NCBI GenBank assembly: GCA_020831885.1 | Contig: JAFIFU010000025.1 | Span: forward strand, 1 to 46,066 | From: Ectothiorhodospiraceae bacterium | GTDB lineage: Bacteria; Pseudomonadota; Gammaproteobacteria; Nitrococcales; Aquisalimonadaceae | DNA: 46,066 nucleotides | Direction: 5' to 3' | Part shown: positions 5,845 to 26,360 of the stretch, in pieces | Layout of the letters: the number at the start of each line of letters is the position of its first letter | Position numbering within the stretch: the stretch's first letter is position 1 | Notes under the pieces: model-generated | The model's input: only the letters and a program-made list of their open reading frames with translations | What the model was told of the DNA's origin: nothing | The model's database searches: none | Translations under genes and position numbers: made by a program

Positions 5845-6720
<876 letters not shown>

Positions 6721-6908
6721 TCACTCTTCAGGAAGCCTGATCGATTCCTCAAGGAAGTGAACCGGATCTTTCTGAACAACCACCACGCGATCGGAATAAC
6801 CCGGGCCTGCCGTGGACCAGCGTGCAAACGGCGTGTATTGTGCAAGGCTTCCATACCGCCTGCTCCAAGCGGGGGCTCAAACCTGCAGAGCATGACCGAT
6901 TCCTTGCC

Positions 6909-7496
6909 ATGGTCGACCATACCGCTCGTCACGAACTGGTGCTGTCACTTCTGGTCCTGATTGCGCTGGCGCTACCTGCATTCATCCTCGCCCTTTTCGG
7001 CAATGAGGCCGTGGAAACGCTCCGCTATGAGCGGTCAGCCATGACTGAAGGCAACTGGTGGCGCGGCCTCACCTGCCACTGGGTTCATCTGGGCACGGCG
7101 CACCTGGCACTCAATCTGGCGGGCCTTGCTGTCGCCGTGCTGATTGCAGGCCAATGGCTGGGCGGCGGCGGGCTCCTGCTGGCAACCCTCCTGGGCGCGG
7201 CAATGGTTCCCGCCGGCCTTTACGTGCTGGACTCGCATCTGGACTGGTATGTGGGGCTGTCAGGCCTGATTCACGCGATCTGGGCCGCCGGGGCATTGCG
7301 CGGGGTGCTCGCGTACCGCTCACTGGCGGCCTGGGCGTTTCTCGGGCTGCTGGCCGTGAAGACCATTGCGGAGATCCAGGCCGGGGCACACCCGGCACTG
7401 GCGGAATTGATCGGCGGCGCGGTGATCGTGCAGGCACACTGGTACGGAGCAGCCGGTGGCGTGCTGGCCGCCGTCCTGCTGCCCCGCAGCCACTGA
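6909..7496 (+). CDS. rrtA: Rhombosortase (rhomboid-family intramembrane protease)
   Basis: A 195-residue polytopic protein. The frame is open from a GTG at 6822, but the ATG at 6909 places the start directly before the first membrane helix and gives the usual family length; neither start has a good SD. Rhombosortase signatures are WRGLTCHWVHLGTAHLALNL (residues 51-70), the nucleophile motif GLSG with Ser118, and a second catalytic His177 in QAHWYGAAGG. Rhombosortases are inner-membrane serine proteases that process proteins with a C-terminal GlyGly-CTERM tail on their way to the cell surface, often type II secretion substrates. No GlyGly-CTERM substrate is seen in this window. Confidence 0.85.
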   Translation: MVDHTARHELVLSLLVLIALALPAFILALFGNEAVETLRYERSAMTEGNWWRGLTCHWVHLGTAHLALNLAGLAVAVLIAGQWLGGGGLLLATLLGAAMVPAGLYVLDSHLDWYVGLSGLIHAIWAAGALRGVLAYRSLAAWAFLGLLAVKTIAEIQAGAHPALAELIGGAVIVQAHWYGAAGGVLAAVLLPRSH

Positions 7497-7520: not shown

Positions 7521-8381
7521 TCAGTAGAGCAGTTGAAACAACTTCTGCCGATAACCCCGGGCCAGGGGGTCATCCGGGCCCAGCAGGTCGAACATCTCCA
7601 ACAGCGTGGTCCGGGCCTGACCGTCGTTCCAGGCCCGGTAGCGGCGGAACAGGTCCAGTAACAGGTCCATGGCCGGTTGGTACTCCCCCCGGGCCGCCTG
7701 ATACATGGCGAGCCCGAAAAGCGCCTCCGGGTCATCTCCCGCTTCGGCCCGCTGGCGCAGCTCCGCCTCCGGCGGAAGTTGCTGCACGCGCTCGGCAAAA
7801 CCGCGCTGGGCGTTCATGGCCTTGACGCGGTCGTCATGCCGCACGCTGTCCGGCAGCGCTGCCAGCAACTGATCCGCATCCTCCAGATTGCCGGTGTTGA
7901 ACAGGGCACGGACCAGGTCCAGCGCCAGATCCTCATCGGAGGGGTCGGCATTGTACGCCGCCTTGAGCAGCGGCAGCGCCGCCTGGAAATCACCCTGCGC
8001 CATCAGTTCCCGGGCCTGCTCCTGGGGGCCGGCCTGATCCGTCTGAACATGCCGTTCCAGCAGTTTACGCACTTCGCTTTCCGGCACCGCCCCCATGAAC
8101 TGGTCCACCACCTGGCCGTCCTTGATGAGGATGACCGTGGGCAGACTGCGCACGCCGATCTGTCCGGCCAGTGCCTGTTCCTCGTCACAGTTCACCTTGG
8201 CCAGCAGAAAGGCTCCGTTATACTCGCGGGCCAGTTTCTCCAGGATCGGCATCAACTGTTTGCAGGGGGCGCACCAGTCCGCCCAGAAATCCACCAGCAC
8301 CGGCACTTGGCGGGAAGCATCCACGACTTCCTGCTGAAAGGTCTGGGCGGTGACATGCTTGATATAAGGCGAATCGCTCAT
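7521..8381 (-). CDS. cnoX: CnoX-type thioredoxin/TPR chaperone-redoxin
   Basis: A 286-residue protein with an N-terminal thioredoxin fold (about 1-110) followed by TPR-like helical repeats (about 115-286). The active site reads DFWADWCAPCKQL with Cys37 and Cys40 and is followed by the cis-proline segment SLPTVILIKDG. CnoX/YbbN proteins protect substrates from over-oxidation and hand them to GroEL or DnaK. The E. coli protein lacks the full CXXC, whereas this one keeps it, so disulfide reductase activity is likely. The ATG at 8381 has a GGAG about 9 bases upstream. It is convergent with the rhombosortase gene and followed upstream by a GGCT-like gene. Confidence 0.9.
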   Translation of the reverse strand: MSDSPYIKHVTAQTFQQEVVDASRQVPVLVDFWADWCAPCKQLMPILEKLAREYNGAFLLAKVNCDEEQALAGQIGVRSLPTVILIKDGQVVDQFMGAVPESEVRKLLERHVQTDQAGPQEQARELMAQGDFQAALPLLKAAYNADPSDEDLALDLVRALFNTGNLEDADQLLAALPDSVRHDDRVKAMNAQRGFAERVQQLPPEAELRQRAEAGDDPEALFGLAMYQAARGEYQPAMDLLLDLFRRYRAWNDGQARTTLLEMFDLLGPDDPLARGYRQKLFQLLY

Positions 8382-8425
8382 CGAAACCAGCTCCGCTGTC
8401 GAATGGTTCGGGTGTGGAACGGATT

Positions 8426-8815
8426 CTACCCCGGCCGCCGCCGGCGCGAACCCCCGGCTCGGGACCGATAGCGCATCCAGTCACCGCCCGGGACCAGCGG
8501 TGCCGGCACCATCGACGACCGGTAGATGTAGATCCAGGATACGCCCCAAGGGCTGTCCATCCGCTCTCTGCGATAAAGCCTGGGGACATCCTCCAGGCGG
8601 TCCAGCTCCCGCAGCATTGACGGGGATACCCGATAGACCTCACCCACGATGGCCTGCTCACCCGGCATCACCACACCCGGGAATGGACCGAGATCGAGCA
8701 TTTGATAGGCGGGAGCGGTGACACACTCCCCCAGAAGTGGCGCGTGTCGGATCAGGGCGTGATTGCTACCGCCGCGCCGCAAGGTTCCGTAGACGAATAC
8801 GCGTTCCCGCATCAT
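8426..8815 (-). CDS. Gamma-glutamylcyclotransferase-like (AIG2) family protein
   Basis: About 129 residues. It carries the family substrate loop VYGTLRRGGSNH near the N-terminus and the conserved EVYRVSPSMLRELDRLE segment that includes the acidic residue region of the fold. Family members cyclise gamma-glutamyl amines or peptides to release 5-oxoproline; the exact substrate is unknown. Two adjacent ATG codons (8815 and 8812) precede the first strand and were preferred over an ATG at 8842, because the family begins just before VYGTL. The C-terminus is Arg-rich. It lies between cnoX and the left edge of the genomic island. Confidence 0.8.
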   Translation of the reverse strand: MMRERVFVYGTLRRGGSNHALIRHAPLLGECVTAPAYQMLDLGPFPGVVMPGEQAIVGEVYRVSPSMLRELDRLEDVPRLYRRERMDSPWGVSWIYIYRSSMVPAPLVPGGDWMRYRSRAGGSRRRRPG

Positions 8816-8909
8816 CCGGCTTTCGTGACCACCTCGTCGCATATTCCGGCATCATGCACCCGTCAAGGTGTCAGCCCGCATTGAAACACGAGATGAAACG
8901 CCAGACACG

Positions 8910-8940
8910 AAAAAACCGCCGGACCACACACCCGACGGTT
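8910..8940 (-). terminator. Rho-independent terminator, formerly that of tRNA-Glu
   Basis: Read on the minus strand this is a 9-bp stem (arms 8932-8940 and 8914-8922, one mismatch) followed by six T residues. It lies about 10 bases beyond the copy of the tRNA-Glu 3' end at 8951-8971, where a tRNA terminator belongs. The island now separates it from the intact tRNA gene by 17.5 kb. Confidence 0.75.
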
Positions 8941-8950
8941 CCCTGGAAAA

Positions 8951-8971
8951 TGGCGTCCCCTAGGGGATTCG
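8951..8971. repeat. Left attachment site (att) core copy
   Basis: This is the 21-bp copy of the last bases of tRNA-Glu (CCA, discriminator, acceptor strand and part of the T arm). Identity with the right copy starts exactly at the CCA end and stops at base 8971. The rest of the tRNA is absent here, so this is the remnant of the original chromosomal 3' end after integration. Confidence 0.9.
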
Positions 8972-9029
8972 CGTTTCGGAGGGGCAACCCCAACAAAATC
9001 AACAACTTGAAAGCCCATGAATGCTTTTA

Positions 9030-9052
9030 CTGTACCACCTTCCTGTACCACC
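9030..9052 (+). promoter_or_regulatory. Paired direct repeats inside the left end (probable integrase arm sites)
   Basis: The 10-mer CTGTACCACC occurs at 9030-9039 and again at 9043-9052, 13 bp apart, 59 bp inside the left att core. The same word with the same 13-bp spacing occurs inside the right end (26361-26381). This symmetric placement is what is expected of arm-type integrase binding sites. The binding itself is inferred. Confidence 0.65.
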
Positions 9053-9160
9053 GACAAGAGCAAACTAACGACAAAGAATCACGCTCAATCTCGGCTTCCG
9101 AAAAAGTGACCCATCGTTTCCTCGTAAGGATGTCCTCAGGGCGATCGGAAAGCCTGTCCC

Positions 9161-11410
9161 CTATGAACCGAAGCGCTTCTTGATGAAGTCCTGGGTCTCG
9201 CTTGCTGTCAGCTCGGTTGTGGCCGCCCCGGTACGAATGAAAAAACGCTCCACGCTGCCGTCCTTCACAAACACTGGCGACTTTGCAGGAGAGCATTCCA
9301 CCACCAGCACTCTCGCGCCATCGAAGTCATCGAAGCGCGGATGGATATACATCATATGGCTCGCGCCCATTCGAGCTTTGATGATGTTTCCCAGATGCAG
9401 GTCCATTTTGTCCTCACTGGGAAACTTGTCTGCTTCGATACCTACAGGGTTGCCATCATCTGCAACACCGATCACGAGCGTACCGCCCGAGGTATTCACA
9501 AAGGCGGCAATGGTCTTGAGCACCGATAATTCCATGCGCGGATCCTTCTCGCCGGTGTGCAGATTGATTCGCAGCGTGGATTTGAACTCAGTGGCGGTGC
9601 TTTCCCCCTGCCCAACGATCAGGTCCACCGGGACGGATTCAGCCGCTTCTTCTCCACCATTCGCAAGCTTGTGATACGCATCTCGGATAACCTGCGCCAT
9701 CAGCTCACGACGTCGGTGCAGGAAGTCGCGGTAATTCATCTCCGGCCAGCCATCCGGAAGGGCGTGCCAGTAGTACATGCGTTCCAACGTCTTACTATCG
9801 AAGCGCTTGCTAAGCTCGGGCACATACTCTGCCGGGGACCGGTCCGCCATCTTTATGTTGTCGCCCCACTCCACCACGGTGAAGTTGGCAATCTGGTTTA
9901 TCTCCCTGGTATCCGTAACCCCTAGCTCAGCCAAGTGCCCCTTGGGAAACAAGTGATGGCGCTCAAGTGAGGCTCGATGGGCCTGAGTCGAAGGATCCAT
10001 CAGTTCCGGTACTTTGTGGTCCGAGAATAGAACCCGCGCGTCGTGCAAATTCAGCGCGGCGAAGTAGGCGAACATCGAGGGACTGCGGGCGGCTGAGGTT
10101 GCCAATTCCGTGGGCAGCGTGATTTCCCAGAAATCATTGGTCACCGTTGAGTTGCAGATGGCTCGCAGGGTATGCACGAATCCTTCCGCATCTTCTACGC
10201 CTCGAAGGCGGGCCAGATCGAACTCCATGGTGGACTCCGGCGAACTGGTGTAACGCCCTGTCAGCGCGGACATGAAAAACCACTGCGCGGTCAGGCGACG
10301 CAGGGTGTACTCCTCTACACCGTATTCCGTACGGCCCAGCAGATAAAGGATGTAGGCGAATAGCAGGTTAGTTTGAGAGCTGATCAGTCGCCCGCTACGA
10401 AAGCCAGCGAGCATCACGGCCTTGAGAAAGTCATGCCAATACTGAAGGTTGAGCACACGCGACTGGGCCCGCTTCAGAACTTCGAACTGAGCCTCCCGAT
10501 ACTCTGGCTTAGGAACATCAGTCTCAACATCCTTACCGCGCAGCACAGAATAGACAGCCTTAAGCCGAGCGCGGCGAAAGCCCACGCCTACACTCACCCG
10601 AAGGAGTTGATCGGGGCTCGGTTCGATGAAGTAGTTGAATGGTGAAGGCTCGCCTGGGCTCGGCTTTCGAGCCCGACGACAGAAATCCTCAAGCTGCGAG
10701 CGGCCCTCGTCCCAGAAGACTGACATCAAGGTCAGGATGAAGTCTGCCTGATTTAGCTTCTTGCCTTCGCTATTTATGCGAACGAATACCTCCGAGACCT
10801 GCTCCTCGTCGATGTGCGCCGCCAGAGCCAGGGTAGTGAACGGAAAGCTCAGCAGATTCTGTAGCCGCGTAAAGGCCTTCTTGATCCGCCTATTCTCCTC
10901 CTGGCTGATCTCTCGGCTGGCCCCAAGCTCTTCTAGATAGGTATCCACCAGCTCGAAAAGATCTGTCTCTTTGTCCCACACCACGGAAATATTGGGGATG
11001 TAACTCTTGTCACGGCGGATCGCAGCATCGGCCACCTCAAATCTCTCCGCGAGCGGGTTGAACGCGATCTCAATCCGCTCCGTGTCATAGTTTTCCCGTA
11101 CCACCGGCACCCCCTTAACAACTGCATACAGGGAGGTCAGCCTCTGCTGCCCGTCCACGATCAGCAAATTGGGCACTTTCTGTTTTTCTCCGGTACCGAT
11201 GGTCCGGGAGTCCTCCACGTTGCTATTCTCCCAGAACAGCAGGTAACCGACCGGGTAACCCCGGTACATCGAATCGAACAGGTTGCGAACCTTGGCGTTC
11301 TTCCACACGAAGGGGCGCTGGATGTCCGGCAAACCGATAGTGCCCATGCCGATTGCATCTACTAGTGAGCCAAGGGTGTAGTCCACCTTCGTGAACACCG
11401 TTTCACTCAT
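9161..11410 (-). CDS. DUF262 (GmrS-like) / HNH / AlbA_2 fusion, probable defence protein
   Basis: A 749-residue protein. The start at 11410 is supported by GGAG 8 bases upstream; a longer frame exists but has no SD. The N-terminal DUF262 domain shows LPDIQRPFVW (about 27-36) and the NTP-site motif DGQQRLTSL (86-94), as in GmrS/DndB-like proteins. A nuclease-like segment follows near residues 481-520 with ERHHLFPK (His485, His486) and Asn509/Asn518, resembling the DUF1524/HNH half of GmrSD. The C-terminus (about 600-735) is an AlbA_2/Schlafen-type domain (ESTATEFKST, then NTSGGTLVIGVADDG). By family it may degrade modified phage DNA; the AlbA_2 part suggests nucleic-acid binding. It lies at the left end of the island, alone. 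Confidence 0.8.
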   Translation of the reverse strand: MSETVFTKVDYTLGSLVDAIGMGTIGLPDIQRPFVWKNAKVRNLFDSMYRGYPVGYLLFWENSNVEDSRTIGTGEKQKVPNLLIVDGQQRLTSLYAVVKGVPVVRENYDTERIEIAFNPLAERFEVADAAIRRDKSYIPNISVVWDKETDLFELVDTYLEELGASREISQEENRRIKKAFTRLQNLLSFPFTTLALAAHIDEEQVSEVFVRINSEGKKLNQADFILTLMSVFWDEGRSQLEDFCRRARKPSPGEPSPFNYFIEPSPDQLLRVSVGVGFRRARLKAVYSVLRGKDVETDVPKPEYREAQFEVLKRAQSRVLNLQYWHDFLKAVMLAGFRSGRLISSQTNLLFAYILYLLGRTEYGVEEYTLRRLTAQWFFMSALTGRYTSSPESTMEFDLARLRGVEDAEGFVHTLRAICNSTVTNDFWEITLPTELATSAARSPSMFAYFAALNLHDARVLFSDHKVPELMDPSTQAHRASLERHHLFPKGHLAELGVTDTREINQIANFTVVEWGDNIKMADRSPAEYVPELSKRFDSKTLERMYYWHALPDGWPEMNYRDFLHRRRELMAQVIRDAYHKLANGGEEAAESVPVDLIVGQGESTATEFKSTLRINLHTGEKDPRMELSVLKTIAAFVNTSGGTLVIGVADDGNPVGIEADKFPSEDKMDLHLGNIIKARMGASHMMYIHPRFDDFDGARVLVVECSPAKSPVFVKDGSVERFFIRTGAATTELTASETQDFIKKRFGS

Positions 11411-11511
11411 GGGGTTCGCTCCTTTTTCTTTGTCTTGGAACGCCAAGGACCGAAGTTCTTGCGCTCTTCGTGCTCTCAAGCGCCTGTGCTTGCAGGGAGC
11501 CCGGAGGGCAC

Positions 11512-11527
11512 AGCATTCTGGAATGCT
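11512..11527. promoter_or_regulatory. Palindrome upstream of the DUF262 gene (possible operator)
   Basis: Perfect 7-bp arms AGCATTC/GAATGCT with a 2-bp centre, about 100 bp upstream of the start at 11410. Position and symmetry suit a repressor site. No cognate regulator is encoded nearby. Confidence 0.35.
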
Positions 11528-11818
11528 CTACTTTCTGTCTGGACACTAGTCTCGTTGCTCTGTGCAGAAGGCACAAGACCGAGGGATAACGGAGTCAAAC
11601 AGGTTAGCTCCGTGAACCGCACCACGTTTCCCTTAGGCCGGTTTTTTCAATCATGCTGTTCATCCTTGTGGACGTAGAGTTCTGCCCCTGACGTTTGTCG
11701 AACCAGCATCGCTGCTCATACTGTGGCTCACCGTATGGTCACACGCGCTGATGGCCGGCGGTGGGATCGTGGTTTTCCTCTGGGACATCACCTGAAACCA
11801 AAGCCGGCGTGTTACTGG

Positions 11819-12060
11819 TCCCCCTATAAGGGGAGCTGGAAGATATCCCTACTATATCCCCCATTAGACCCCTGAAGATTTCCTATGGATGTTCTTCAGG
11901 TAGATCTGCAGATATGACCATAGGGCCTGTTCAGCCCCCTGAAAGACCACCGAAAGGCAGGGGGGTTAATTGCTGCTATTAACCCCCCATCCAGTAGATG
12001 AAGCAAAGGCAGTACCCCTGGAGAAGACCAGGAGTATCCAACAGCCTCCTCCAGAGGAGG
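11819..12060. other. Dense hairpin/pseudoknot-capable segment (candidate structured RNA or replication origin)
   Basis: Within about 240 bp there are a 5-bp hairpin (11821-11833); 8-bp arms 11871-11878/11893-11900; 7-bp arms 11882-11888/11918-11924, the left arm lying in the previous loop so that an H-type pseudoknot is possible; a 10-bp palindrome at 11904-11913; a perfect 11-bp stem with 7-base loop at 11960-11988; a 9-bp stem with one mismatch at 12013-12036; and a 6-bp stem with 4-base loop at 12045-12060. It directly follows the stop of the polymerase-like gene. Strand is undecided. Ordinary coding or spacer sequence would not give this density. Confidence 0.5.
11960..11988. repeat. Perfect 11-bp inverted repeat, strongest hairpin of the segment
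   Basis: Arms GGGGGGTTAAT (11960-11970) and ATTAACCCCCC (11978-11988) with loop TGCTGCT. The six-C run at 11983-11988 and the five-C run at 11935-11939 compete for the same G run, so two exclusive folds are possible. Confidence 0.8.
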
Positions 12061-12082
12061 ACCTTTGGGCCTCCATGATGGC

Positions 12083-13501
12083 CTACTCTTCGGTGACTAT
12101 CCCGGGTAGCCCTGTATGACGAAGGAAGACCTCCTCCATCACCTGCTTTGCGGTCTCCGCGATCGAGGCCTTTACCACCACCGCGTCATGCACCGGGAGG
12201 GCTACGTGCCCCAGCCCCCGTAGTCGGCGCAAAATCTCGATCAGAATCTCGCTTTCCTTGAACTGAAGATGATGCCCTACCCCGGTGAAAAAATGCGCTG
12301 AAATCGGCTTATGGGCGGCCTGGATGGCCTTTGCAACGTCACTGACCCGTGTCCCTTTCGGGAACTTGTCAGCGAGTCCTTTGGGCATCCTGGTCATGGG
12401 CTGCGACGCGAACAACATCGCGTTGAACAGTCGCTTCACTCCCTCCCGATGCCTCTCGAACCCGGGCACCTGGTAGGCATCCTCCTGGGCAGGAACCACG
12501 CCAACCTCCCCGTAGAGCATCCGAGGGGCCATCTGGGAGTAATCTAGAGAAACGACCCCCTCCCCTTCGATCTCGATCCGGTGCCGACGCTCATACTTAT
12601 GCAGTCGTTGCCAGAAGCCACCGAAGAGCCTCCCACCACAATCGAACCGCCCCATGGTGAAGTATCTGCGGAGCACCAGATCCGTGGGATCTGCCCGACG
12701 CGCAACGTCTGTCTGGCACGGATCAAAGTGGATGTCAGCGGCACTGATCCAGGAGTTGATCTCCCTGAGTTCCTCTCGGTATCGGCGTGTTACCTCCGTG
12801 TCGTCGTAGGGAATCATCTCCCCTTCATCCAAAGGCCCCTTCTTTGGGCGCTTAAGGATGATGGTCTCCTGGTCCAGGGACCGACCCACGTCATGAATGG
12901 CCAGGTCATACTTACGGATCAACCGCAGCGTGGCTTCACCTGGGAACATGACGGACACCTTGGAAAAACCAAAGTGCTGCTGCTTCCCCAGTTCGTGCGT
13001 CAGAAACCGGAGGCGCGATGAGGCCAGCCGTTCCACGATTTTCGGGAGCGTCTTGTTGATTGCAACCGGAACATACCTGCCGGATTTCCCCAGTTCGCGA
13101 TGCGAGCGATGGTAGGCGATGCCCTGCCCGTCCTCCGCAATCAATGCGTGGTAGACGAGATTGCAGATCAAAGCTGACACGGTTATTTCAAAAACCTTCT
13201 GATCGCTAGGACGACGACCGCGCTTTCGCCACCCGAGCTTCATCTCGTAGTGCGTCAACCGGTCGACGACCTTCTGGACTGCCTCCCGCATCTTCTCGGT
13301 TTTGGGAGCTAGCACGGGCTGAAACCATCGGTCCTTTCGCTCGTCAGGGGACTCAGTCCCTGTGGTTGTCGCCCCCGCGTGGAAGACGTGCTTCCTGGAG
13401 GTCCTCATGGATACTTCCTGAGGCATCTGCGGGGTACGGTACCTGCCATGGTGCTTCCAGTTGGTGCGAGTTGTTGGCAACGAAGATCGAGCCATTCCCA
13501 T
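12083..13501 (-). CDS. Minimal family-A DNA-polymerase palm protein (uncharacterised, mobile-element type)
   Basis: A 472-residue protein. The C-terminal half matches the palm/fingers core of family-A polymerases. Motif A is SLDYSQMAPRMLY with Asp320. Motif B is R352-x3-K356 then FNAMLF, aligning with the Arg754/Lys758 and Tyr766 positions of E. coli Pol I (Tyr is Phe here). Motif C is LPVHDAVVV with His438-Asp439, where the usual following Glu is Ala. Both metal-binding Asp residues are thus present. No 3'-5' exonuclease motif is recognisable in the N-terminal 300 residues. The start at 13501 overlaps the stop of the upstream zinc-ribbon gene (TAATG), so the two are translationally coupled. 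The role may be replication or repair of the element, or defence. The family assignment is my motif reading; the function is unknown. Confidence 0.7.
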   Translation of the reverse strand: MGMARSSLPTTRTNWKHHGRYRTPQMPQEVSMRTSRKHVFHAGATTTGTESPDERKDRWFQPVLAPKTEKMREAVQKVVDRLTHYEMKLGWRKRGRRPSDQKVFEITVSALICNLVYHALIAEDGQGIAYHRSHRELGKSGRYVPVAINKTLPKIVERLASSRLRFLTHELGKQQHFGFSKVSVMFPGEATLRLIRKYDLAIHDVGRSLDQETIILKRPKKGPLDEGEMIPYDDTEVTRRYREELREINSWISAADIHFDPCQTDVARRADPTDLVLRRYFTMGRFDCGGRLFGGFWQRLHKYERRHRIEIEGEGVVSLDYSQMAPRMLYGEVGVVPAQEDAYQVPGFERHREGVKRLFNAMLFASQPMTRMPKGLADKFPKGTRVSDVAKAIQAAHKPISAHFFTGVGHHLQFKESEILIEILRRLRGLGHVALPVHDAVVVKASIAETAKQVMEEVFLRHTGLPGIVTEE

Positions 13502-14160
13502 TACCTGAGCTCCTTCAAGGCTTGCTGAATCGCCGAACGCCTTTCCTGCTGCTGGCGCTCCCTCTCACGGTCCATGCCGTGAATCCAAAGGCCGAGCCCA
13601 CCGAAGGCCTCGGTTAGCCACTGGCCAACCAACAAGGCAACCCGGGGCGGAATGTCCCTGTAAACCCGTTTCAGACGTCCTGCGCGGTGGTCGTAGGTGG
13701 TGCCCACGTTTACGTCCGTCAGGGCACGCACTCGGCGAGCGACCTGATGGATAAAGGCCCGATCAGAAAGGAAGCGGCGTGGATCCCACTGGCGCATGAG
13801 CACCAGGGCTCCAACGACGTCGATAATTTCAACCGGGGCAACGTGGTCGTTGAGAGAGATGATTTCCTGGGAGGCTGCCACCTGGTGTCGACTGGCGGTT
13901 CGTCCTGACAGGTATCCGGCGAGGTAGGTGTGGCAGGACTCCACGAGATCTGCCCAGCGCTCCTCCAGTAGAGTCCATACGGGATTCCTGAGGTTCTTCT
14001 CCCTGGTTGTCACCACGCGGTCCAGGAAAGGGCGTAGCTCCAGCTTGGTGACACCGGTTTGGCATGGATGGCCATGGCGACGATGGCGAGTCTTGTGGGC
14101 CGGGCAATATCGGCTCCACCCGGAGGTGCGTCGACCGCACAGGGGAACACTGCACAACAT
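13501..14160 (-). CDS. N-terminal zinc-ribbon protein coupled to the polymerase-like gene
   Basis: A 219-residue protein. The first 32 residues carry CSVPLCGRRTSGWSRYCPAH followed by KTRHRRHGHP: Cys3, Cys8, Cys18 and His21 form a likely zinc site in a basic context that suits DNA or RNA binding. The rest is helical and ends in a highly charged tail (RERERQQQERRS). The ATG at 14160 has GAGG 8 bases upstream. Its TAA overlaps the ATG of the polymerase-like gene by one base, which makes the two a unit. A template-binding or primer-recruiting subunit is a reasonable guess but is only inference. Confidence 0.6.
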   Translation of the reverse strand: MLCSVPLCGRRTSGWSRYCPAHKTRHRRHGHPCQTGVTKLELRPFLDRVVTTREKNLRNPVWTLLEERWADLVESCHTYLAGYLSGRTASRHQVAASQEIISLNDHVAPVEIIDVVGALVLMRQWDPRRFLSDRAFIHQVARRVRALTDVNVGTTYDHRAGRLKRVYRDIPPRVALLVGQWLTEAFGGLGLWIHGMDRERERQQQERRSAIQQALKELR

Positions 14161-14513
14161 GGACTTATCCTCAGACAGGCAAACAGAAATTGCGCCCGTC
14201 CTTCAATGGACAGGCACGAATTTGGATTCAATGTCACAAATTGAGACCACCGTTCCTTCTGTAGAGCCAAAGAATTAGGTGGGACCGGTAAGGCGTCAGA
14301 AATTGGCAATCACCACCCCGCACGAGGCAAGCGGAGATACAGGCGTGATTCGGCAGGATGCCGGAAGGCGAAGCCTGTGGGTGGCCAGATCAGAAATACA
14401 CAGAATCGCGGAGATGAGACCTACAGCAGCCAACGCTCGGCCCCGTGATCACCGAGCATTATCATCAGGTGTCCACTTAGCCCCTAGTGGACACCTTTAC
14501 TGTTTGTTTGCCC
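14161..14513. other. 353-bp gene-free spacer
   Basis: This lies between the zinc-ribbon gene start and the serine-recombinase stop. It must hold the promoter of the zinc-ribbon/polymerase unit, but no strong -35/-10 pair is obvious. The only clear structure is the inverted repeat at 14467-14496. Confidence 0.6.
14467..14496. repeat. Perfect 11-bp inverted repeat after the serine recombinase
   Basis: Arms AGGTGTCCACT (14467-14477) and AGTGGACACCT (14486-14496) with an 8-base loop, 18 bp beyond the recombinase stop. It is not followed by a T run in the recombinase's direction. It could therefore be a recombination site or a weak terminator. Confidence 0.6.
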
Positions 14514-15080
14514 TTACGCTGCATCTCGCAGGATCCGGTACACGGACGCCCTTCCGATGCCCAAGCGTCGAGCAATCTCTGTAGGCCCCACGCCCTGAGC
14601 ATGGAGTTCCAGCACGTCCTTGCTCTTCGCACGAGCGGTGGGCTTCCTTCCCTTGTACTTACCTGCGGCCTTGGCCTTCGCTATCCCTTCGCGTTGCCGC
14701 TCCAGCATGATCTCCCGTTCAAACTCCGCGATTCCCCCCAAGACGGTCAGCAAAAGCTTCCCCGTCGCCGTTCCTGTGTCGATCCCGAGATCCAGGATTC
14801 GTAGGGCAACACCCCGTTCGGCAAGGTAGTGCGTGATTTCCAGCAGGTGAGCGACAGAGCGGGCCAGGCGGTCGAGCTTGGTAACGACCAAGGCATCACC
14901 CTCCCGGACGAAATCGAGTGCCTGAGAGAGCTGCTCCCGCCGCCTGACGTCCACCGACGAAACTTGCTCCTGGAAGATCTTCTCGCACCCTGCCGCCCGG
15001 AGATCACGGACTTGCGCCTCAATACTGGCCTTCTGATCAAGAGTGGAGGTTCTGGCGTAGCCGATCAGCATGGTTTGCAT
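14514..15080 (-). CDS. Serine recombinase (resolvase/invertase family)
   Basis: A 188-residue protein, the standard length for small resolvases/invertases. The catalytic domain begins MLIGYARTSTLDQ with nucleophile Ser12 (Ser9 if translation starts at the second ATG, 15071). It carries the conserved LVVTKLDRLARSVAHL and GGIAEFEREIMLERQREGIAKAK segments, then the GRKPT hinge and a C-terminal helix-turn-helix (GPTEIARRLGIGRASVYRIL). The first ATG has GAGGG almost touching it and the second has the same GAGGG about 10 bases away, so 15071 is a real alternative. It resolves or inverts DNA at short symmetric sites. Palindromes lie on both sides of the gene. Confidence 0.92.
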   Translation of the reverse strand: MQTMLIGYARTSTLDQKASIEAQVRDLRAAGCEKIFQEQVSSVDVRRREQLSQALDFVREGDALVVTKLDRLARSVAHLLEITHYLAERGVALRILDLGIDTGTATGKLLLTVLGGIAEFEREIMLERQREGIAKAKAAGKYKGRKPTARAKSKDVLELHAQGVGPTEIARRLGIGRASVYRILRDAA

Positions 15081-15086
15081 GCCCTC

Positions 15087-15103
15087 ATCGTGTCATACAC
15101 GAT
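15087..15103. promoter_or_regulatory. Palindrome directly upstream of the serine recombinase (possible res subsite/operator)
   Basis: Perfect 7-bp arms ATCGTGT/ACACGAT around a 3-bp centre, 7 bp upstream of the recombinase start. Resolvases commonly bind and repress at sites in this position. Confidence 0.45.
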
Positions 15104-15322
15104 TTAGACTTTATGATACATCTGTCCCAAATATCAACTTCCAACTTCCGTGAGACGCCAGAAGAAGGCTGGATCAGAGTCTCAATAGGGCATGGTCATG
15201 TGAGATTCCTAGATTTCCTAATCCGTCCACTTGGTCCTGCGGTGATGGCCATGTAAGCTCTCGCCTCGTGCTGCCCGTCAGAGAGGGGCCAGTTTCAGTT
15301 TGCTTTGCCGCTTGGGGGTAGG

Positions 15323-15826
15323 ATGACAGGGATATTTACCATCGGCTACGAAGGAGCATCCGCCGAGGACTTCGTAGAGACACTAAAGCTCATGGACATT
15401 CATGTCCTTCTCGATATCCGTGAGTTCCCTATATCCAGGCGCAAAGGTTTCGCCAAGAATGCCCTGCGGCAATCTATGGAATCGTATGGAATCGTGTACC
15501 ACCATGAAGCTCGCCTTGGTTCACCGAAACCTATTCGGGACAAACTAAAGAAAGACAAGGACTACTCCGCGTTCTTCAATTCCTACGATGCCTACCTCGA
15601 AAGTCAAATGGGGCTTCTGCATAGCCTCTGGAAGGAACTGCGTGGTAACATCGCTTTAATGTGCTACGAGCGGGATCACCGGGAGTGTCATCGATCCTCG
15701 GTTGCACGGGAACTTGCCAAGATCACGGGCATTCAGCCTCGGCATATCGGAGTTCAAGGACATGAACAACGGGAAGCCTATAAAGCAGCGGGTTCGAATT
15801 CTTGTAAAGGCGTATCCACAGCCTAG
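15323..15826 (+). CDS. DUF488 family protein
   Basis: A 167-residue protein. The ATG at 15323 was preferred over an upstream TTG because it directly precedes the conserved strand IFTIGYEG and has a G-rich SD. DUF488 hallmarks are TIGYEG, LLDIREFPISRRKGFAK (the conserved DxR..P..R stretch), and the C-terminal motif CYERDHRECHRSSVA with Cys and His-Arg. The biochemical function of DUF488 is not established; the Cys/CHR arrangement resembles a phosphate-type active site, which is inference. It overlaps the next gene by 65 bases in another frame. The base composition is visibly AT-richer than the flanks. Confidence 0.85.
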   Translation: MTGIFTIGYEGASAEDFVETLKLMDIHVLLDIREFPISRRKGFAKNALRQSMESYGIVYHHEARLGSPKPIRDKLKKDKDYSAFFNSYDAYLESQMGLLHSLWKELRGNIALMCYERDHRECHRSSVARELAKITGIQPRHIGVQGHEQREAYKAAGSNSCKGVSTA

Positions 15827-16577
15827 CGCCAAGTACGGTGAAACCGTTTGCTGTGCGGGAATAACCGAAGACGGGAGCCAATTCCTTCGCCTGTACCCGA
15901 TCATGTATCGGCAGCTTCCTCCTGAATCGAAGTTCGGCCGATACGATCTCGTGGAGATGGAGACACTTCCAGCAACGAATGACTCACGACCAGAAACCCG
16001 CCGAGTCGTTCCTGATACTATTCGAAAAATTCCCACTAGAGGACTTTCAGATTCAGAGAAAGTCCGGTTGTGGGCACCCTTTGTTGCTCCTTCCCTCATG
16101 TCTCTCCGCGAAGAAAATGAACGCCTTGGAAAAAGTCTCGGAATCATTCGCCCGGACCCGGGCTCTCTGGAGTTTCTCGTCGAGAAGGTCGCGGAGATTT
16201 CGATGGAGGATCGGGAGTTAACAAGGACAACAATGCTTAGCCAGCAGGGGTTATTTGACGAAGTCCCGCTCACCCCCTTGGAACAGCCCGAACTCGCCTT
16301 CTCCTATCGATTTACCTCTGGGGGCCAACGTCACAAGATGGTGATTCACGACTGGGAGGTCCAAACCGCTTGGTTCAACTTCAAACGCCGCTACAAAACA
16401 AAGTCGCTGGCCTTGGAGATGCTGCAGAAGGAATATGGAAGAGAGATCCCAAAGCGTCATCCACACTTCCTGATGGGAACAGTTGGCTCTAGGCCAAAAC
16501 AGTTCATAATGATTGGCATTCTACGCTCCGGAGTCAGCCCGGAAGATGCCACTCGGCAGGGCGAGTTGATATTCTAA
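15762..16577 (+). CDS. Uncharacterised partner of DUF488
   Basis: A 271-residue soluble protein. The frame opens at 15702 inside DUF488, but the ATG at 15762 (AAGGA just upstream) gives a sensible N-terminus, KQRVRILVKAYPQPSAKYGETVCCAGI. Conserved-looking features are this N-terminal strand with Cys-Cys, the segment FLRLYPIMYRQLP, and a C-terminal half with HKMVIHDWE and HPHFLMGTVGSRPKQFIMIGIL. There is no recognisable catalytic motif, signal peptide or membrane helix. The 65-base overlap with DUF488 implies coordinated expression, so I read the two as one module. Function unknown. Confidence 0.7.
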   Translation: MNNGKPIKQRVRILVKAYPQPSAKYGETVCCAGITEDGSQFLRLYPIMYRQLPPESKFGRYDLVEMETLPATNDSRPETRRVVPDTIRKIPTRGLSDSEKVRLWAPFVAPSLMSLREENERLGKSLGIIRPDPGSLEFLVEKVAEISMEDRELTRTTMLSQQGLFDEVPLTPLEQPELAFSYRFTSGGQRHKMVIHDWEVQTAWFNFKRRYKTKSLALEMLQKEYGREIPKRHPHFLMGTVGSRPKQFIMIGILRSGVSPEDATRQGELIF

Positions 16578-16613
16578 CATTCAGCCATAATCACTGATTG
16601 TTGCCTCCAGATT

Positions 16614-16633
16614 GCGGCCTAGGCTTTGGCCGC
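16614..16633. terminator. Short GC hairpin between convergent genes
   Basis: 6-bp arms GCGGCC/GGCCGC with an 8-base loop, in the 135-bp gap between the DUF488 partner and the convergent membrane-protein gene. No T run follows on either strand, so terminator function is weakly supported. Confidence 0.3.
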
Positions 16634-16712
16634 GGTGGCACACGGTGACCTTTCTTAATTGGCTGCCCTTTTGGGGGTCGTTTAGGCTGTGGTTTAATTC
16701 TTCCTTTTTCAC

Positions 16713-17111
16713 TCATATTTGCATCACATTAAGGAAAATAAATACAAAGGTAGATCCAACACCCAGAACAAAAAGAATTCCCGCAAGGACGTTCATTAAG
16801 TCGGTCGCTCTGTCCAAGAACCCACGCGAAGCCTCTTCCTTACCCTCATCCAGATTTTCTATTGCTTCACGCATGGCGAAGACACTACTGAGGTAAGAAA
16901 ATAGCGTAAAAGCAATTGCGAGCGTCCAACTCACCCAAGCTCCAAGCAACAAGGCGACAAACTTAGCCTCAGCCAAAGGAACCAAATCACCAACGAAAGC
17001 AAATGAAATACCAAGTGCCCCACCGGAGAGCGAGAGAATCGCCTTGTCGTAACCTTCCTGTGCCTTTTGTTCCGTTTCGATCAGGAGATTTCGATAATGA
17101 TCGTCCCTCAT
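16713..17111 (-). CDS. Small membrane protein downstream of hsdR
   Basis: A 132-residue protein from the ATG at 17111 (GAGGGG just upstream); the longer open frame to 17216 is Cys/Arg-rich and probably untranslated. An amphipathic N-terminus (RDDHYRNLLIETEQKAQEGYDKAIL) precedes hydrophobic segments at about 25-43, 50-77 and 106-130, with an acidic loop (ENLDEGKEEASRG) between the last two. It lies 123 bp after the hsdR stop on the same strand and may be co-transcribed with the restriction operon. It is AT-richer than its neighbours. The family is not recognised; a membrane effector is one possibility among others. Confidence 0.6.
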   Translation of the reverse strand: MRDDHYRNLLIETEQKAQEGYDKAILSLSGGALGISFAFVGDLVPLAEAKFVALLLGAWVSWTLAIAFTLFSYLSSVFAMREAIENLDEGKEEASRGFLDRATDLMNVLAGILFVLGVGSTFVFIFLNVMQI

Positions 17112-17234
17112 ACGCCCCTCAAACTCAAAGAGAGCCGGCGCCCACCTATGCGTAGCGGGGGGAGCCTGAAGTTCGCGGCACCGACAGTGCGCTCTGAAAA
17201 ATGTGTAGTAAAACATTTGGAGATTGGAGACATC

Positions 17235-20200
17235 TCATACGATGGAGGCATAGACACTCGCCCCACCCCCTGAATAGCTCTCATACACATGCCGAAAGGC
17301 GGCCTCGCATTTGGCCTCGTAGATCGTCTCGTCGTAGACCTCTGGCAAGCCCTGGTCCAGGACCACCTCGATGGTCTGCTTGACCGCGCCACGGGCCCTT
17401 GGCTTGTTGCGCCAGTCGAGGACCAGCTTCTCGGTCTTCAGGACCTCCAGGAGACTCTTGCAGACCTTCTTCACCTCGGCCTTTTGCTTGTCGCTCAGCT
17501 CCGGCTCAGGCTTAGTCAGGATGTCGAACAGCGCCAGCTCCTCTTCCGAGAGCCCCTCGCGGATCGTCCGGCGTTCCTCCTCCTGGAGCGCCTGGGTGAA
17601 TGCCATCAGCTCGCGGAAGAAGGCCTCGATGTTCATGCTACCCGCGTTGTACTTCTCGATGAGCTGCTGGAACCGCTCCATGAAGTCCACCCGGGTGGGG
17701 TTGGTGGCGACCATGGACTCCAGTTTCTGGTTCAGCAGGGCCCGGAGCTTTTCCGCCTCGGTGCGCTTGCGGCCCTGATTGAACCTCGCCTGTAGCTTCT
17801 CGAAGTCAATCTGGCTCAGGTCGAACAGCGGCTCCTCATCGTCATCGGTGATGATGTAGGGCACCGGGGCCACTGACTGATCCAGCAGGTCATCCACATC
17901 CTTCATCACCTGAGAGATATCCACTTCCGGCTGCAGCGCCTTGATCCGCTGGGCCAGCACGGAGATCAGTACGGCATCCGGAGCGAGATCCTGCGCTACG
18001 GGGTCCGGCAGAACCGCCCGATAGACGCGGGACGTCACCCGGGCAAGGTTCATGAAGTCCTTCTTTGTCTGATCCGTCTCGAGAAGTTGGTCCACGGCAT
18101 CCTTCACCGCTGCTTGCTTCTGGAACCCATCCGCCGCCTTGATCTTCTCCGGATCGATGCCCCGTTCCACCAGGAATGCCTTGCACCGGGCCAGCAGGTA
18201 TTTCAGGTGCTCAACCAGTTCCGCCTTCTGTTGGATGGGGGTATCACGGCCAACCTTGGCCGCACTGTATCCAGCAGCAGGTTCGCGGACCTCGCTGGAC
18301 GCCCCTCCGTAGATGGCCAAGGCTTCCTGCAGCTTTCGGAACACTCCCACATAGTCGACGATCAGCCCCGCTTCCTTACCCGGATACTTCCGGTTCGCCC
18401 TGGCGATAGTCTGCATGAGAGTGTGGTTCTTCATGGGCTTGTCGAGGTAGATGGTGGAGCAGGACGGCACGTCGAAGCCGGTAATCCACATGGCACACAC
18501 GAAGACCAACCGCAGGGGGTTCGCCGGGTCCTTGAACTTCTCGTCCAGGCTCTCCTCCACCATCCGCTTGCGGTGCGGGAGAATGTCCAACCCCTTGTCA
18601 GCCAGCTCCTTCACCTCGTTCTGGCTCTGAGAGACCACCACAACCATGTCGGTCTCGGACATCACCTGGATCTTGTGTTGCAGCTCCGGCTGACGCTCCG
18701 CTGGAGCGGTTTCCAGTTCGGCCTTGAGACGGGCAAGGTAGGTCTTCCAGTGAGCCTGAACCTTGTCATACATCCTCACCGCGGTGGCCTTGTCGATGCA
18801 GACCATCATGGCCTTGCCCTGGTGGCCACGCCCCACGAAGTGCTGAACCAGGTCTTCAGCTATGGCCTCCAGCCGGTCGTCGCGGGTGATGAGGTGGTAC
18901 TCCCGGGCAAAGACCTTCTCAACCTTCCGTTCCTGATCTTCGTCCAGCTCCGCGTCTTCCAGCAGACGGGTCAGGTCTTCATTCAGGTTTTCGTTGATGA
19001 GTTGCAGTTCGGGGATCCGGTTCTCGTAGTACAGCGGGACCGTTGCTCCGTCCTCGATGGACTGCCCGAAGTTGTAAACGGAGATGTAATCCCCGAAGAC
19101 CTCACGGGTCCTCTCCTCCCCGGCCATCAGCGGGGTCCCGGTAAAGCCCAGGAACGCTGCATGGGGAAGCGCCGCCCGCATGTTCATCGCCAGCGTGTCG
19201 TACTGGGAACGGTGCGCCTCATCGGTGATGACGATGATGTCCTGCCGGTCAGACAGCTGGGGGTAGGCCTCACCCTGCCTGGTGCCGAATTTTTGGATGA
19301 GCGTGAAGACGTACCGGTGATCCTCCGTCAGGAGCTGTTTCAGGTGCTCACCGCTGGTGGCGTGGGCCTCGCTTTCCGTCACCGCACCGGTAGCCGCGAA
19401 GGTCTTGTAGATCTGCTCATCCAGCTCCTTGCGGTCCGTGACGATCACGAACGTCCAGTTGCCTGGAACGGTGCGGAGGATCTTCTGCGTGAAGAACACC
19501 ATCGACAGTGACTTGCCGGACCCCTGCGTGTGCCAGAAGACGCCCAGCCGCCCCGCCTCCTCCGCTGGCCGATCCTTGATCCGCTGGAGCTCAGCGATAG
19601 CCTTGTTGACCCCTAGGTACTGGTGATTCTTCGCGATCTTCTTGATGAGGCCGCCCGGTGCCTCCTCGAACACCGTGAAGTTCTCCACGATATCCAGCAA
19701 CCGACTGGGTTCCGCCAGGCCCCGAATCGCTGTGTCCAGGGACACCACGCCCCTCTCGTTCTCGTCGTTGATCCGCTTCCACTCGAAGAAGTGCTCCCAG
19801 GGGGCAAACGAGCTGCCCACGACTGTCTCGGAGCCGTTGGAAAGCATCACGGCAGCGTTGTAGGTGAACAGCTGGGGGATGACCGAGCGGTAATCGGTCA
19901 GATTGCCGTCATAGGCCGTCTTGAGCGCCTTGTGAACCGCCTTCAGCTCCACGAAGAGCAGTGGAATACCGTTCACAAATCCGACCAGATCGGGACGCCG
20001 CGTATGGAGATCGCCCTTAACCCAAAACTGAGAGGCGAGGAAGAAGTCGTTGCCCGCCGGGTCTTTCCAATCGATCACCCGGGCGGTTTCCATCATGTTC
20101 CGCCCGCGCTCATCCGTGACCTCGACCTTCACCCCATCCTTGAGCAGCCTGTAGACCTCCAGATTGGCGTTCACCGGAAGGAGCTTGGAGCGATCCCGGG

Positions 20201-20450
20201 TGATCTCCTCAATGGCCCGCTCCAGGGCGTCCCCAGGGAGTTTCGGGTTAAGCCTGGCCAAGGCGTCCCTGAGCCTGGGCACCAGCACCACGTCCTGCTG
20301 GCTTCGCCTTCCGACGCTGGAACTGCCCCCCGCCCACTCATCAAGGAGTTTCCCGATGGACCAGCCCAGCGCGTGGAAGAGTTCCATCGCGGGCTGCTCA
20401 ACCAGAGCCTCCTCGGAGTAATCGGATGTGGGGGACTGCGGAGGCGTCAC
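17235..20450 (-). CDS. hsdR: Type I restriction enzyme, R (nuclease/translocase) subunit
   Basis: A 1071-residue protein, full family length. The N-terminal nuclease shows the PD-(D/E)xK pattern: Asp154 in RRPDLVGF, then Glu168-x-Lys170 in FVELKA. The superfamily-2 motor follows, with Walker A TQGSGKS (308-314), DEAH box ITDEAHRSQYDTL (408-420), and GFTGTPL. In the complex with HsdM and HsdS it translocates unmodified DNA and cleaves it at a distance. The GTG start at 20450 overlaps the hsdS stop (GTGA). No frameshift is visible, so it should be active. Confidence 0.97.
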   Translation of the reverse strand: MTPPQSPTSDYSEEALVEQPAMELFHALGWSIGKLLDEWAGGSSSVGRRSQQDVVLVPRLRDALARLNPKLPGDALERAIEEITRDRSKLLPVNANLEVYRLLKDGVKVEVTDERGRNMMETARVIDWKDPAGNDFFLASQFWVKGDLHTRRPDLVGFVNGIPLLFVELKAVHKALKTAYDGNLTDYRSVIPQLFTYNAAVMLSNGSETVVGSSFAPWEHFFEWKRINDENERGVVSLDTAIRGLAEPSRLLDIVENFTVFEEAPGGLIKKIAKNHQYLGVNKAIAELQRIKDRPAEEAGRLGVFWHTQGSGKSLSMVFFTQKILRTVPGNWTFVIVTDRKELDEQIYKTFAATGAVTESEAHATSGEHLKQLLTEDHRYVFTLIQKFGTRQGEAYPQLSDRQDIIVITDEAHRSQYDTLAMNMRAALPHAAFLGFTGTPLMAGEERTREVFGDYISVYNFGQSIEDGATVPLYYENRIPELQLINENLNEDLTRLLEDAELDEDQERKVEKVFAREYHLITRDDRLEAIAEDLVQHFVGRGHQGKAMMVCIDKATAVRMYDKVQAHWKTYLARLKAELETAPAERQPELQHKIQVMSETDMVVVVSQSQNEVKELADKGLDILPHRKRMVEESLDEKFKDPANPLRLVFVCAMWITGFDVPSCSTIYLDKPMKNHTLMQTIARANRKYPGKEAGLIVDYVGVFRKLQEALAIYGGASSEVREPAAGYSAAKVGRDTPIQQKAELVEHLKYLLARCKAFLVERGIDPEKIKAADGFQKQAAVKDAVDQLLETDQTKKDFMNLARVTSRVYRAVLPDPVAQDLAPDAVLISVLAQRIKALQPEVDISQVMKDVDDLLDQSVAPVPYIITDDDEEPLFDLSQIDFEKLQARFNQGRKRTEAEKLRALLNQKLESMVATNPTRVDFMERFQQLIEKYNAGSMNIEAFFRELMAFTQALQEEERRTIREGLSEEELALFDILTKPEPELSDKQKAEVKKVCKSLLEVLKTEKLVLDWRNKPRARGAVKQTIEVVLDQGLPEVYDETIYEAKCEAAFRHVYESYSGGGASVYASIV

Positions 20451-21717
20451 GCGGCTTCGACCTCCTTGTCGTCAGGCAAGGGAATGTGGGACACGTCGAT
20501 CTCGCCGGACACCAGTTTGGGGAGAAGCAGGTCGCGTTGGGCGCGGAGATTGGAATTTTTCTTCTGGAGACTTAGAACCAAATCAAATATCGGTCTAACC
20601 TTATCTTCGAAAATGTGCGCAACTTCAAGATCAGGAATTATGACTGAAATCTGTCTAAACGTGTCAACTATAATGGTGTCAAAAACAGCACCGTGACTAC
20701 GGTTTTTCAAATCGCATACAGCTTCCCTAATTGCCAAAAATAGAAAAAACTGACCAAAGCCATTCTTCGCTCTCAAGGCATAACATGACTGATTCATGGC
20801 CATATCACACGGAGCCAACGCCGTCTTTCCTACCGTACCTCTTGCCGTAATAAAGACAGTATCTTTTGGATATAGCTTGCTGTTACATTTAGCAAGACCC
20901 ATATCTGTTATCGTGCTTGCTGTCTCCGATACATAATAGGCCGAGGGCGCATCCCTTGGTGTAAAAAATGGTATACTTCCCCCCCAAAATCGCTCTTCAG
21001 ATTTTTTGGGTGTTCCTCCGCTCAGGACATCTGCCAGTGCGGTGAAGGGCATGCACTCCCACCCCTCAGGAATCCTCCCAAGCTCACTCTCCTTGAATCT
21101 CACCTCCTCATGCCCAGGGAAGCGGAAGTGGACGAACCACTCCTCGTACAACCGCCGGGCCATCTCCTCAAGGATCTCGATGCGGCGCGTGTTGTTTTCG
21201 ATGAGGTCGTCGTAGGCGGAAAGGATGGAGGCAATACGGAGCTGGGTGCGGAGCGGTGGTAGCAAGACGCGAAGGCGTTTGGCATCCGGCACTCGCATAT
21301 GCTCAACAGTGGCACCGGAACCCAGCGCCCTAATCTGGGACTGCAAGTATTCCCCCTGAAACGCGTAAAGCAGAAATCTGTTATCCAGCCTTTCTGGGTC
21401 CGCTCGGTACGAGACAAGCCTTTGCCCCAAGAATACGGAGTCGCTCTTCCTGAGCATACCAACCTCCCCCAAAGGGGCTTCGCGGGTCAGTATGACGTCA
21501 CCTTTCTGAGGAACTTGGCGTCTAGTCCATTTTTCGTAGATAGGTTTTTCAACGTACTTGACGCTAGCAAGATCAATCCACCCGTTGCGGACGTTTGTTG
21601 TTCGAATCATTTTGTAGGGAGTGACGTAATCCACTGTCGGCGCGGTCTTGTTCACGCAATCAATAATGGATTCGCAAATGTCATCGATACAAGTATCTTT
21701 CCACCCCCTTTTCAGGC

Positions 21718-21721
<4 letters not shown>
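20447..21721 (-). CDS. hsdS: Type I restriction enzyme, S (specificity) subunit
   Basis: A 424-residue protein with the usual two half-repeats. TRD1 (about 1-160) ends in [42 protein letters not shown], the first conserved coiled spacer. TRD2 (about 215-385) ends in [29 protein letters not shown], the second. It sets the DNA target of both modification and cleavage. The GTG start overlaps the hsdM stop by GTGA, and the stop overlaps hsdR in the same way. The DNA encoding TRD2 (about 20555-21010) is strikingly AT-rich compared with the spacers, which suggests a swapped-in domain. The recognised sequence cannot be predicted by eye. Confidence 0.95.
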
Positions 21722-23319
<1,598 letters not shown>

Positions 23320-23460
23320 TTTTATCCCCTTTGTGCCTCAGCGGAAATACTACACACCAAGGATTGGAACGTCATGCCATCAGGCCAACGACGCGGCGAC
23401 GCCTATGGGTTCGTGAGCCGGCGTCACTTTCCTGCTTCAGGCAACCACTGCACCCGACGC

Positions 23461-26358: not shown

Positions 26359-26360
26359 CT

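Follow-up and report, generated by a model that had tools for sequence, protein, structure and literature searches.

A minimal family-A polymerase and its helical zinc-knuckle partner on an integrative island of an Ectothiorhodospiraceae bacterium

Introduction

TV-Pols were predicted in 2008 to be prim-pols of mobile elements, and a stand-alone neighboring gene for an all-helical protein was noted there (PMC2579912); this helical neighbor was previously without a known fold. In 2020, according to the accessible part of their article, the authors of a study on the staphylococcal enzyme CCPol knew of no other biochemically characterized TV-Pol; in the same part, CCPol-MP of SCCmec is reported to produce DNA primers solely with its partner and CCPol to retain the motif A glutamate of Pol I (PMC7581432). 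The available portion of another study likens its OB-fold partners to the N-terminal domain of T7 RNA polymerase (RNAP), as an analogy (PMC10061031). Furthermore, the authors who described divPolA2 weighed an RNA polymerase identity and, as far as their article was accessible, found its N-terminal region unlike RNAP N-terminal domains (PMC11348598). No enzyme assay of the TV-Pol subset considered here was found in a search of the partly accessible literature.

This article concerns two adjacent genes in a 46,066-nucleotide stretch of an Ectothiorhodospiraceae bacterium genome (contig JAFIFU010000025.1), referred to as the window, in which a preliminary description had proposed a candidate new module. 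A two-protein, island-borne family-A module is borne out by the structural model, by how the coupling is conserved, and by the anatomy of the island, whereas its novelty did not stand in view of phrog_4756/divPolA2 and TV-Pol; the module is real, widespread, and little studied, and was previously described in outline. What is new here is the identity proposed for the partner, together with a survey of the coupling.

The Island and Its Two-Gene Module

The minimal family-A polymerase (12083–13501, 472 amino acids) and the partner (13501–14160, 219 amino acids) are encoded on the minus strand by two open reading frames that meet in a TAATG junction, where the preliminary description had placed them. 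The polymerase comprises thumb, palm, and fingers according to its AlphaFold2 model and matches phrog_4756; the partner comprises a zinc knuckle (C3-C8-C19-H22), a helical bundle, a β-hairpin (residues 151–167), and a long C-terminal helix. The zinc motif described earlier is thus present, although its spacing is C3-x4-C8-x10-C19-x2-H22, with x10 in place of x9. The assigned start of the polymerase is supported by the recurrence of an upstream partner with a 4-base overlap at six further loci, yet residues 10–50 are predicted to be disordered. Neither protein was matched by any Pfam, NCBIfam, or PADLOC model, and the reported absence of an exonuclease in the polymerase agrees with the lack of a Pfam or NCBIfam match.

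The module lies on an integrative island of 17,515 bp, repeat to repeat (8951–26465), which was delimited by exact 21-bp direct repeats, GC content, and comparison with a genome of the same genus. One copy of the att repeat is located at the far end (8951–8971, TGGCGTCCCCTAGGGGATTCG) and the other (26445–26465) forms the 3′ end of a tRNA-Glu(ttc) gene (26445–26520, minus strand). GC content is 0.54–0.61 in the 2-kb bins of 8001–26000 versus 0.60–0.66 outside. In the same-genus genome, the left-flank gene, tRNA-Glu, and the TRAP genes lie together in a stretch that has one copy of the repeat and no match to the island; a perfect empty site was not obtained there, as approximately 6.6 kb of other genes occupy the place between the left flank and tRNA-Glu. 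Three recombinase genes are located on the minus strand of the island: a tyrosine integrase of 577 amino acids adjoining tRNA-Glu (24625–26358; DUF6538 and Phage_integrase), a second tyrosine recombinase (23461–24513; Phage_integrase, E 1.4e-26), and a serine recombinase of the resolvase/invertase type upstream of the partner and on the same strand (14514–15080; Pfam Resolvase, E 5.6e-43). The host genome has a single place matching phrog_4756 and, in addition, a PolA-type gene whose open frame spans 905 codons, so that the island polymerase is not a replacement of the host PolA.

The cargo includes type I restriction-modification genes on the minus strand (17235–23319; R 17235–20450, S 20447–21721, M 21718–23319), a DUF488 protein with a 291-amino-acid companion on the plus strand (15305–16577) that match the PADLOC candidate PDC-M19A/B, and, at the far end on the minus strand (9161–11479), one 772-amino-acid protein with domain matches to GmrSD_N (residues 39–249) and Schlafen/AlbA_2 (residues 626–757), the best PADLOC matches of which are HEC-05 and PDC-M55C. 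A 167-amino-acid protein beside the type I genes (16713–17216) has no convincing family and shows hydrophobic stretches by eye. A near-perfect inverted repeat of 14 bp (11960–11988, GGGGGGTTAATTGC/GCTATTAACCCCCC) lies in the 0.6 kb of non-coding DNA that follow the polymerase gene; as a candidate origin it was rejected, perfect 11-bp arms being present in 1 of 15 relatives and with a different sequence. Outside the island, two TRAP solute-binding genes beside the tRNA (26593–27633 and 29829–30872) are 71% identical, with one such gene at that place in the same-genus genome, and the contig start has two 150-nt direct repeats (1–150 and 199–348) that are 91% alike.

Sequence and Predicted Structure of the Polymerase

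The only PHROG matching the window polymerase is phrog_4756 (E 2.6e-34, residues 71–460), and the published divPolA2 AUR84708 matches both phrog_4756 (E 1.8e-91) and a profile of 100 members of the family (E 1.2e-34). On sequence grounds, the polymerase belongs to phrog_4756, the family that includes the phage divPolA2 (2024). These 100 distinct full-length members, the window polymerase included, remained after proteins of fewer than 381 residues were dropped, and were used for residue counts and for the tree. The motifs D320YSQ, R352-x3-K356, and VH438-D439-A440 had been correctly located in the preliminary description, and a DxxGR-type motif (D287-C-G-G-R291) precedes motif A on its N-terminal side. 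R291, D320, and K356 are each kept in 100/100 members, H438 and D439 each in 99/100, R352 in 99/100 with one gap, and D341 in 97/100; both palm aspartates are retained, as had been claimed. Replacement of the motif C glutamate by alanine was likewise correctly read in the window and is one form of a family trait, glutamate being absent from 99/100 members: the residue following D439 is A in 58, S in 20, G in 16, C in 5, and E in 1.

These positions bear on an alternative that we regard as unlikely, namely that the pair is a split single-subunit RNA polymerase, in which the polymerase corresponds to the catalytic C-terminal part and the partner to the promoter-binding N-terminal part, the two transcribing island genes from their own promoters, like RNAPII (gp15 and gp16) of phage N4. 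Consistent with this alternative, motif C is HD[A/S/G] and not HDE in 94/100 members, and the glutamate of Pol I and other DNA polymerases at motif A+5 is found in 0/100 (Ala325 in the window). Two features of motif B oppose it: position K+8, which we take to be the place of T7 Tyr639, is Phe364 in the window and F in 53, N in 28, and Y in 1 of the 100 members, and the 83 residues from K356 to D439 are short for a T7-like specificity loop. In T7, the spacing from motif B to motif C is longer. Positions motif A+5 and motif B K+8 suggest that the polymerase may have a relaxed sugar choice, and the choice may differ from that of CCPol because the motif A+5 glutamate common to CCPol and Pol I is absent from 100/100 members.

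At the level of sequence profiles, the family looks mixed, with an apparently RNAP-like motif C and a weakly PolA-like GR/motif A region. In favor of an RNA polymerase, the 100-polymerase profile aligns over 49 columns with phage RNAPs around their motif C (IHDSFGT, E 2e-4), whereas the stretch of GR and motif A aligns weakly with PolA (TGRLSS...DYSQIELRI, E 0.035); the two comparisons, each one-against-one, are not evenly matched because the PolA alignment is less diverse (Neff 2.7 versus 3.9 for RNAP). The same profile had no match at E ≤ 10 to 11 T7-like RNAPs, 20 PolAs, gp15, and gp16, and a family profile (A4) found nothing at E ≤ 0.1 in the entire record of Ma-LMM01, a cyanophage TV-Pol member. 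The polymerase profile had no match among PDB sequences, and Pfam searches over 75 members of the polymerase alignment gave scattered single matches, with no family-A polymerase among 25 of 30 families shown.

The fold prediction had been set beforehand as a test of the family-A assignment, and the AlphaFold2 model, based on a 75-sequence alignment (pLDDT 88.3, pTM 0.85), has a confidently predicted palm. Foldseek against the PDB gave 103 matches at E ≤ 0.001 (best E 2.1e-6), and the 50 matches listed are all family-A DNA polymerases, which speaks against an RNA polymerase. By VIA-align, the best match is the yeast mitochondrial RNA polymerase (Z 14.0, rmsd 3.2, 243 residues), which speaks for one, but the apicoplast polymerase, T7 RNAP, and Taq are all within one Z unit of it, so that RNA and DNA polymerases are tied. 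The DxxGR, A, B, and C motifs that a single-subunit RNA polymerase requires are present in the palm fold; they are not specific to RNA polymerases because family-A DNA polymerases have them in common.

Conservation and Predicted Fold of the Partner

Among 42 members of the partner family, Cys19 is invariant, and Cys3, Cys8, His22, Arg28, and His29 are conserved in at least 90%. The partner model (mean pLDDT 95.1, pTM 0.87) consists of the zinc knuckle, six helices, the β-hairpin at residues 151–167, and a 47-residue helix. In a VIA-align search covering 985 of the 1000 best Foldseek chains, the first 15 entries are exclusively N-terminal promoter domains of single-subunit RNA polymerases with Z scores of 4.6–8.9, although values below 13 may reflect a common arrangement of helical bundles; entries after rank 15 are unrelated proteins at Z 3.7 and lower. 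The matched enzymes are the yeast mitochondrial RNAP (Z 8.9, rmsd 4.5, 126 residues, region 432–660), T7 RNAP (up to Z 7.4, region 60–267), human POLRMT (Z 7.2), and the N4 virion RNAP (Z 4.8 and 4.6). This ranking counts in favor of the split RNA polymerase introduced above.

As judged from the model, the partner likely has the fold of an RNAP N-terminal promoter domain. A true fold link is favored because the top of the ranking is taken up by four distantly related members of a single enzyme family and by nothing else, and because the adjacent gene encodes a protein related to the catalytic half of the same enzyme. The link is likely and not proven because Foldseek and profile–profile comparisons do not confirm it, and it is weakened by three results: Foldseek against the PDB gave nothing at E ≤ 0.001, with T7 RNAP at rank 8; viral predicted structures gave no match at E ≤ 0.001; and hhalign against RNAP, PolA, and N4 profiles gave no support, with a probability of 0.07 for RNAP. 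The partner profile had six matches among PDB sequences, all at E 0.88 or worse, and Pfam searches over 42 members of the partner alignment gave scattered single matches, with no family-A polymerase in the 18/18 families shown. N4 gp15 and gp16 were considered as sequence relatives of the polymerase or the partner and rejected, as they have no profile similarity. In a literature search that covered few subscription papers and saw its sources in part, no published statement was found that gives the TV-Pol neighbor the RNAP N-terminal fold.

Distribution and Coupling

Matches to phrog_4756 were found in 1/14 genomes of the taxonomic family and 5/274 of the class, and a five-sequence profile (A1) detected the polymerase in 24/398 genomes of the phylum; its distribution is sporadic. 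Scanning species genomes yielded 123 confirmed polymerase places, and fractions among the loci are not population frequencies because the best 80 of 123 were chosen by polymerase patterns. The places kept are mainly from Pseudomonadota and also from Thermodesulfobacteriota, Nitrospirota, Planctomycetota, and one record named Mycobacterium.

The partner search, seeded with neighbor clusters and the window gene, recovered the partner at 49/117 loci, upstream or downstream of the polymerase but always on its strand, at a distance of at most 251 bp save at two loci, where it is 414 and 712 bp. Removal of duplicates in eight groups left 109 of the 117 loci, and 106 were used for partner and recombinase counts, from which L003–L005 were also left out. 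The survey of homologous neighborhoods that had been proposed as a check thus found that the coupling recurs, with the partner at 46/106 loci; the remaining 60/106 have no recognised partner, so that it is not universal. On a quick tree of the 100 polymerases, the partner/none label needs 15 changes and the upstream/downstream/none label 16, and well-supported branches alone force at least five changes each for the upstream and downstream labels. Because adjacency survives these swaps of gene order, a joint function of polymerase and partner is argued.

The two proteins also co-occur across genomes. The partner is found in 10/398 genomes of the phylum, and 7 of those 10 are among the 24 polymerase-bearing genomes; when the genome of the window is left out, the figure is 6/9 (hypergeometric P 1.4e-6), the polymerase and partner draws of 398 genomes being taken as the same genomes by their shared handles. 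One partner-positive genome (G366) has an intact partner (L188, 5956–6693) with a resolvase and an integrase nearby and no polymerase within 12.6 kb, and the remaining two without a polymerase have fragments or weak matches. A cysteine-pattern scan of partnerless loci flagged five. Nearby proteins with a similar C-x-C-x-C/H pattern at L073 (UP, 267 amino acids) and L133 (UP, 205 amino acids) are possible divergent partners.

Relatives of the polymerase are also present in phage genomes. Two phage stretches (L004 and L005) have no partner, and three of four IMG/VR contigs (L139, L140, and L142) have one. Vibrio phage qdvp001 (L005, KT932418.1) has two members of the polymerase family (82059–82757 and 6084–7157), and matches to one of these occur in 171 phage records, including 144 with Vibrio in the name; the polymerase relative in qdvp001 adjoins an annotated helicase.

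Mobile-Element Context

Site-specific recombinases are the commonest neighbors of the polymerase, being found at 90/106 loci (serine at 59, tyrosine at 71); the tyrosine recombinases of the window itself fall beyond the distance used in this count. With the same models, recombinases were detected in 24/28 polymerase regions versus 0/20 control regions of 17 kb, placed at round coordinates elsewhere in 11 polymerase-bearing genomes, a contrast that is somewhat favored because the models were trained on polymerase neighbors. In Rhodobacteraceae bacterium HTCC2083 (L100 and L102), two places on one scaffold are 99.9% identical over 5,228 bp, and this duplication is recent. The duplicated stretch carries the polymerase, a tyrosine integrase, and a gene read as insertion-sequence-like, and has no partner gene. 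No helicase family is prominent among the neighbor clusters.

The preliminary description had raised, as an alternative, a defence polymerase similar in logic to defence reverse transcriptases, which we consider very improbable. Nothing favors it except co-residence on the island with GmrSD, type I restriction-modification, and the candidate PDC-M19 pair; no PADLOC model matches the polymerase or the partner, and type I restriction genes vary by locus, the largest type I cluster being found at 9/109 loci, whereas recombinases recur at 90/106. The occurrence of polymerase relatives in phages also opposes a defence role, as does the HTCC2083 duplicate, which has the polymerase and an integrase but no recognisable defence gene among its larger open reading frames.

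Proposed Function

We lean toward the view that the pair serves an integrative element as a two-subunit primase-polymerase, which copies the excised island. Briefly, the integrases would excise the island as a circle, or the island would arrive as single-stranded DNA; the partner would bind and orient the template strand, gripping it like the T7 promoter domain, and would enable the polymerase to begin a strand without a primer; the polymerase would then elongate the started strand, and the serine resolvase could resolve multimers from such copying. It is inferred that the two proteins form a complex, that strands start de novo, that the partner grips the template, and that the excised form is replicated. 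T7-type RNA polymerases are themselves family-A enzymes and start de novo with an N-terminal domain.

The primase-polymerase reading is drawn from the kept catalytic residues, the palm model, the conserved same-strand adjacency despite order swaps, the recombinase context, the near-identical HTCC2083 copies, the presence of a host PolA, the CCPol-MP precedent, and the likeness of the partner to an RNAP initiation domain. Several observations count against it: 60/106 loci are partnerless and G366 has a partner with no polymerase within 12.6 kb; no helicase family is prominent among the neighbor clusters, unlike CCPol-MP and D5-linked TV-Pols, though a helicase is annotated beside the qdvp001 relative; the CCPol-MP partner has an OB fold, other than that of this partner; and, with the motif A glutamate absent from 100/100 members, sugar choice may differ. 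An alternative is a polymerase that repairs or fills gaps when the element integrates or transposes, the partner serving as a DNA-binding processivity factor, with no de novo initiation. Such an enzyme could be minimal, lack a recognised exonuclease, and stand beside recombinases, as here, the partner bears a zinc knuckle, and many relatives have no partner; however, the partner resembles an initiation domain and the host already has PolA, and we think this explanation improbable.

Beyond the primase-polymerase reading, we tentatively propose, at somewhat less than even confidence, that the promoter domain at the N-terminus of T7, N4, and mitochondrial RNAPs has a free-standing relative in the partner. 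On this view, the ancestral enzyme would have given rise to those RNAPs by fusion and would survive here in two genes, as a family-A polymerase that initiates de novo, has a relaxed sugar choice, and belongs to bacterial integrative elements. The likeness to a promoter domain may explain strand initiation by minimal polymerases. If true, the way in which a family-A polymerase gains primer-independent initiation and the source of the mitochondrial RNA polymerase N-terminal domain would become testable with the same two small proteins, and a replication mechanism would be suggested for a class of islands that is widespread in proteobacteria and includes several with restriction genes.

Comparison With Known Systems

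The polymerase fits TV-Pol by anatomy and neighborhood. Both are minimal family-A enzymes without a nuclease, TV-Pols having 400–600 residues, and both have the β-hairpin arginine, the two palm aspartates, and the fingers aspartate with RxxxK (R291, D341, and R352–K356 here); an adjacent all-helical protein, a resolvase, a lambda-type integrase, restriction-modification islands, and many alphaproteobacteria are likewise common to TV-Pol and this module (PMC2579912). The TV-PolN of that study may be the same as this partner, and the accessible part of the 2008 article does not state what the helical neighbor resembles. By sequence, the window polymerase is of the same protein family as divPolA2/phrog_4756 of tailed phages (PMC11348598). 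The CCPol-MP/PolA-SSB primases, as far as their descriptions are accessible, share with this module a minimal family-A polymerase with a small partner, integrative elements, and a two-gene logic (PMC7581432, PMC10061031), whereas their partner is an SSB with an OB fold and the genes are followed by one for a helicase; the partner here combines a zinc knuckle with a helical bundle, and its model is helical with one hairpin in place of an OB fold.

N4 RNAPII (gp15 and gp16), according to the accessible part of its description, is a T7-type polymerase split over two adjacent genes, a two-gene arrangement as found here, but its split point differs: gp15 has the N-terminus, thumb, and DxxGR, whereas DxxGR is here in the catalytic protein (PMC4496689). 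Finally, the N-terminal domains of T7, mitochondrial, and N4 virion RNAPs resemble the partner model, with no sequence-profile support for the partner against T7-type RNAPs, and their C-terminal part resembles the polymerase model; this pair has 691 residues in two chains versus 799–883 in one chain for 11 phage RNAPs.
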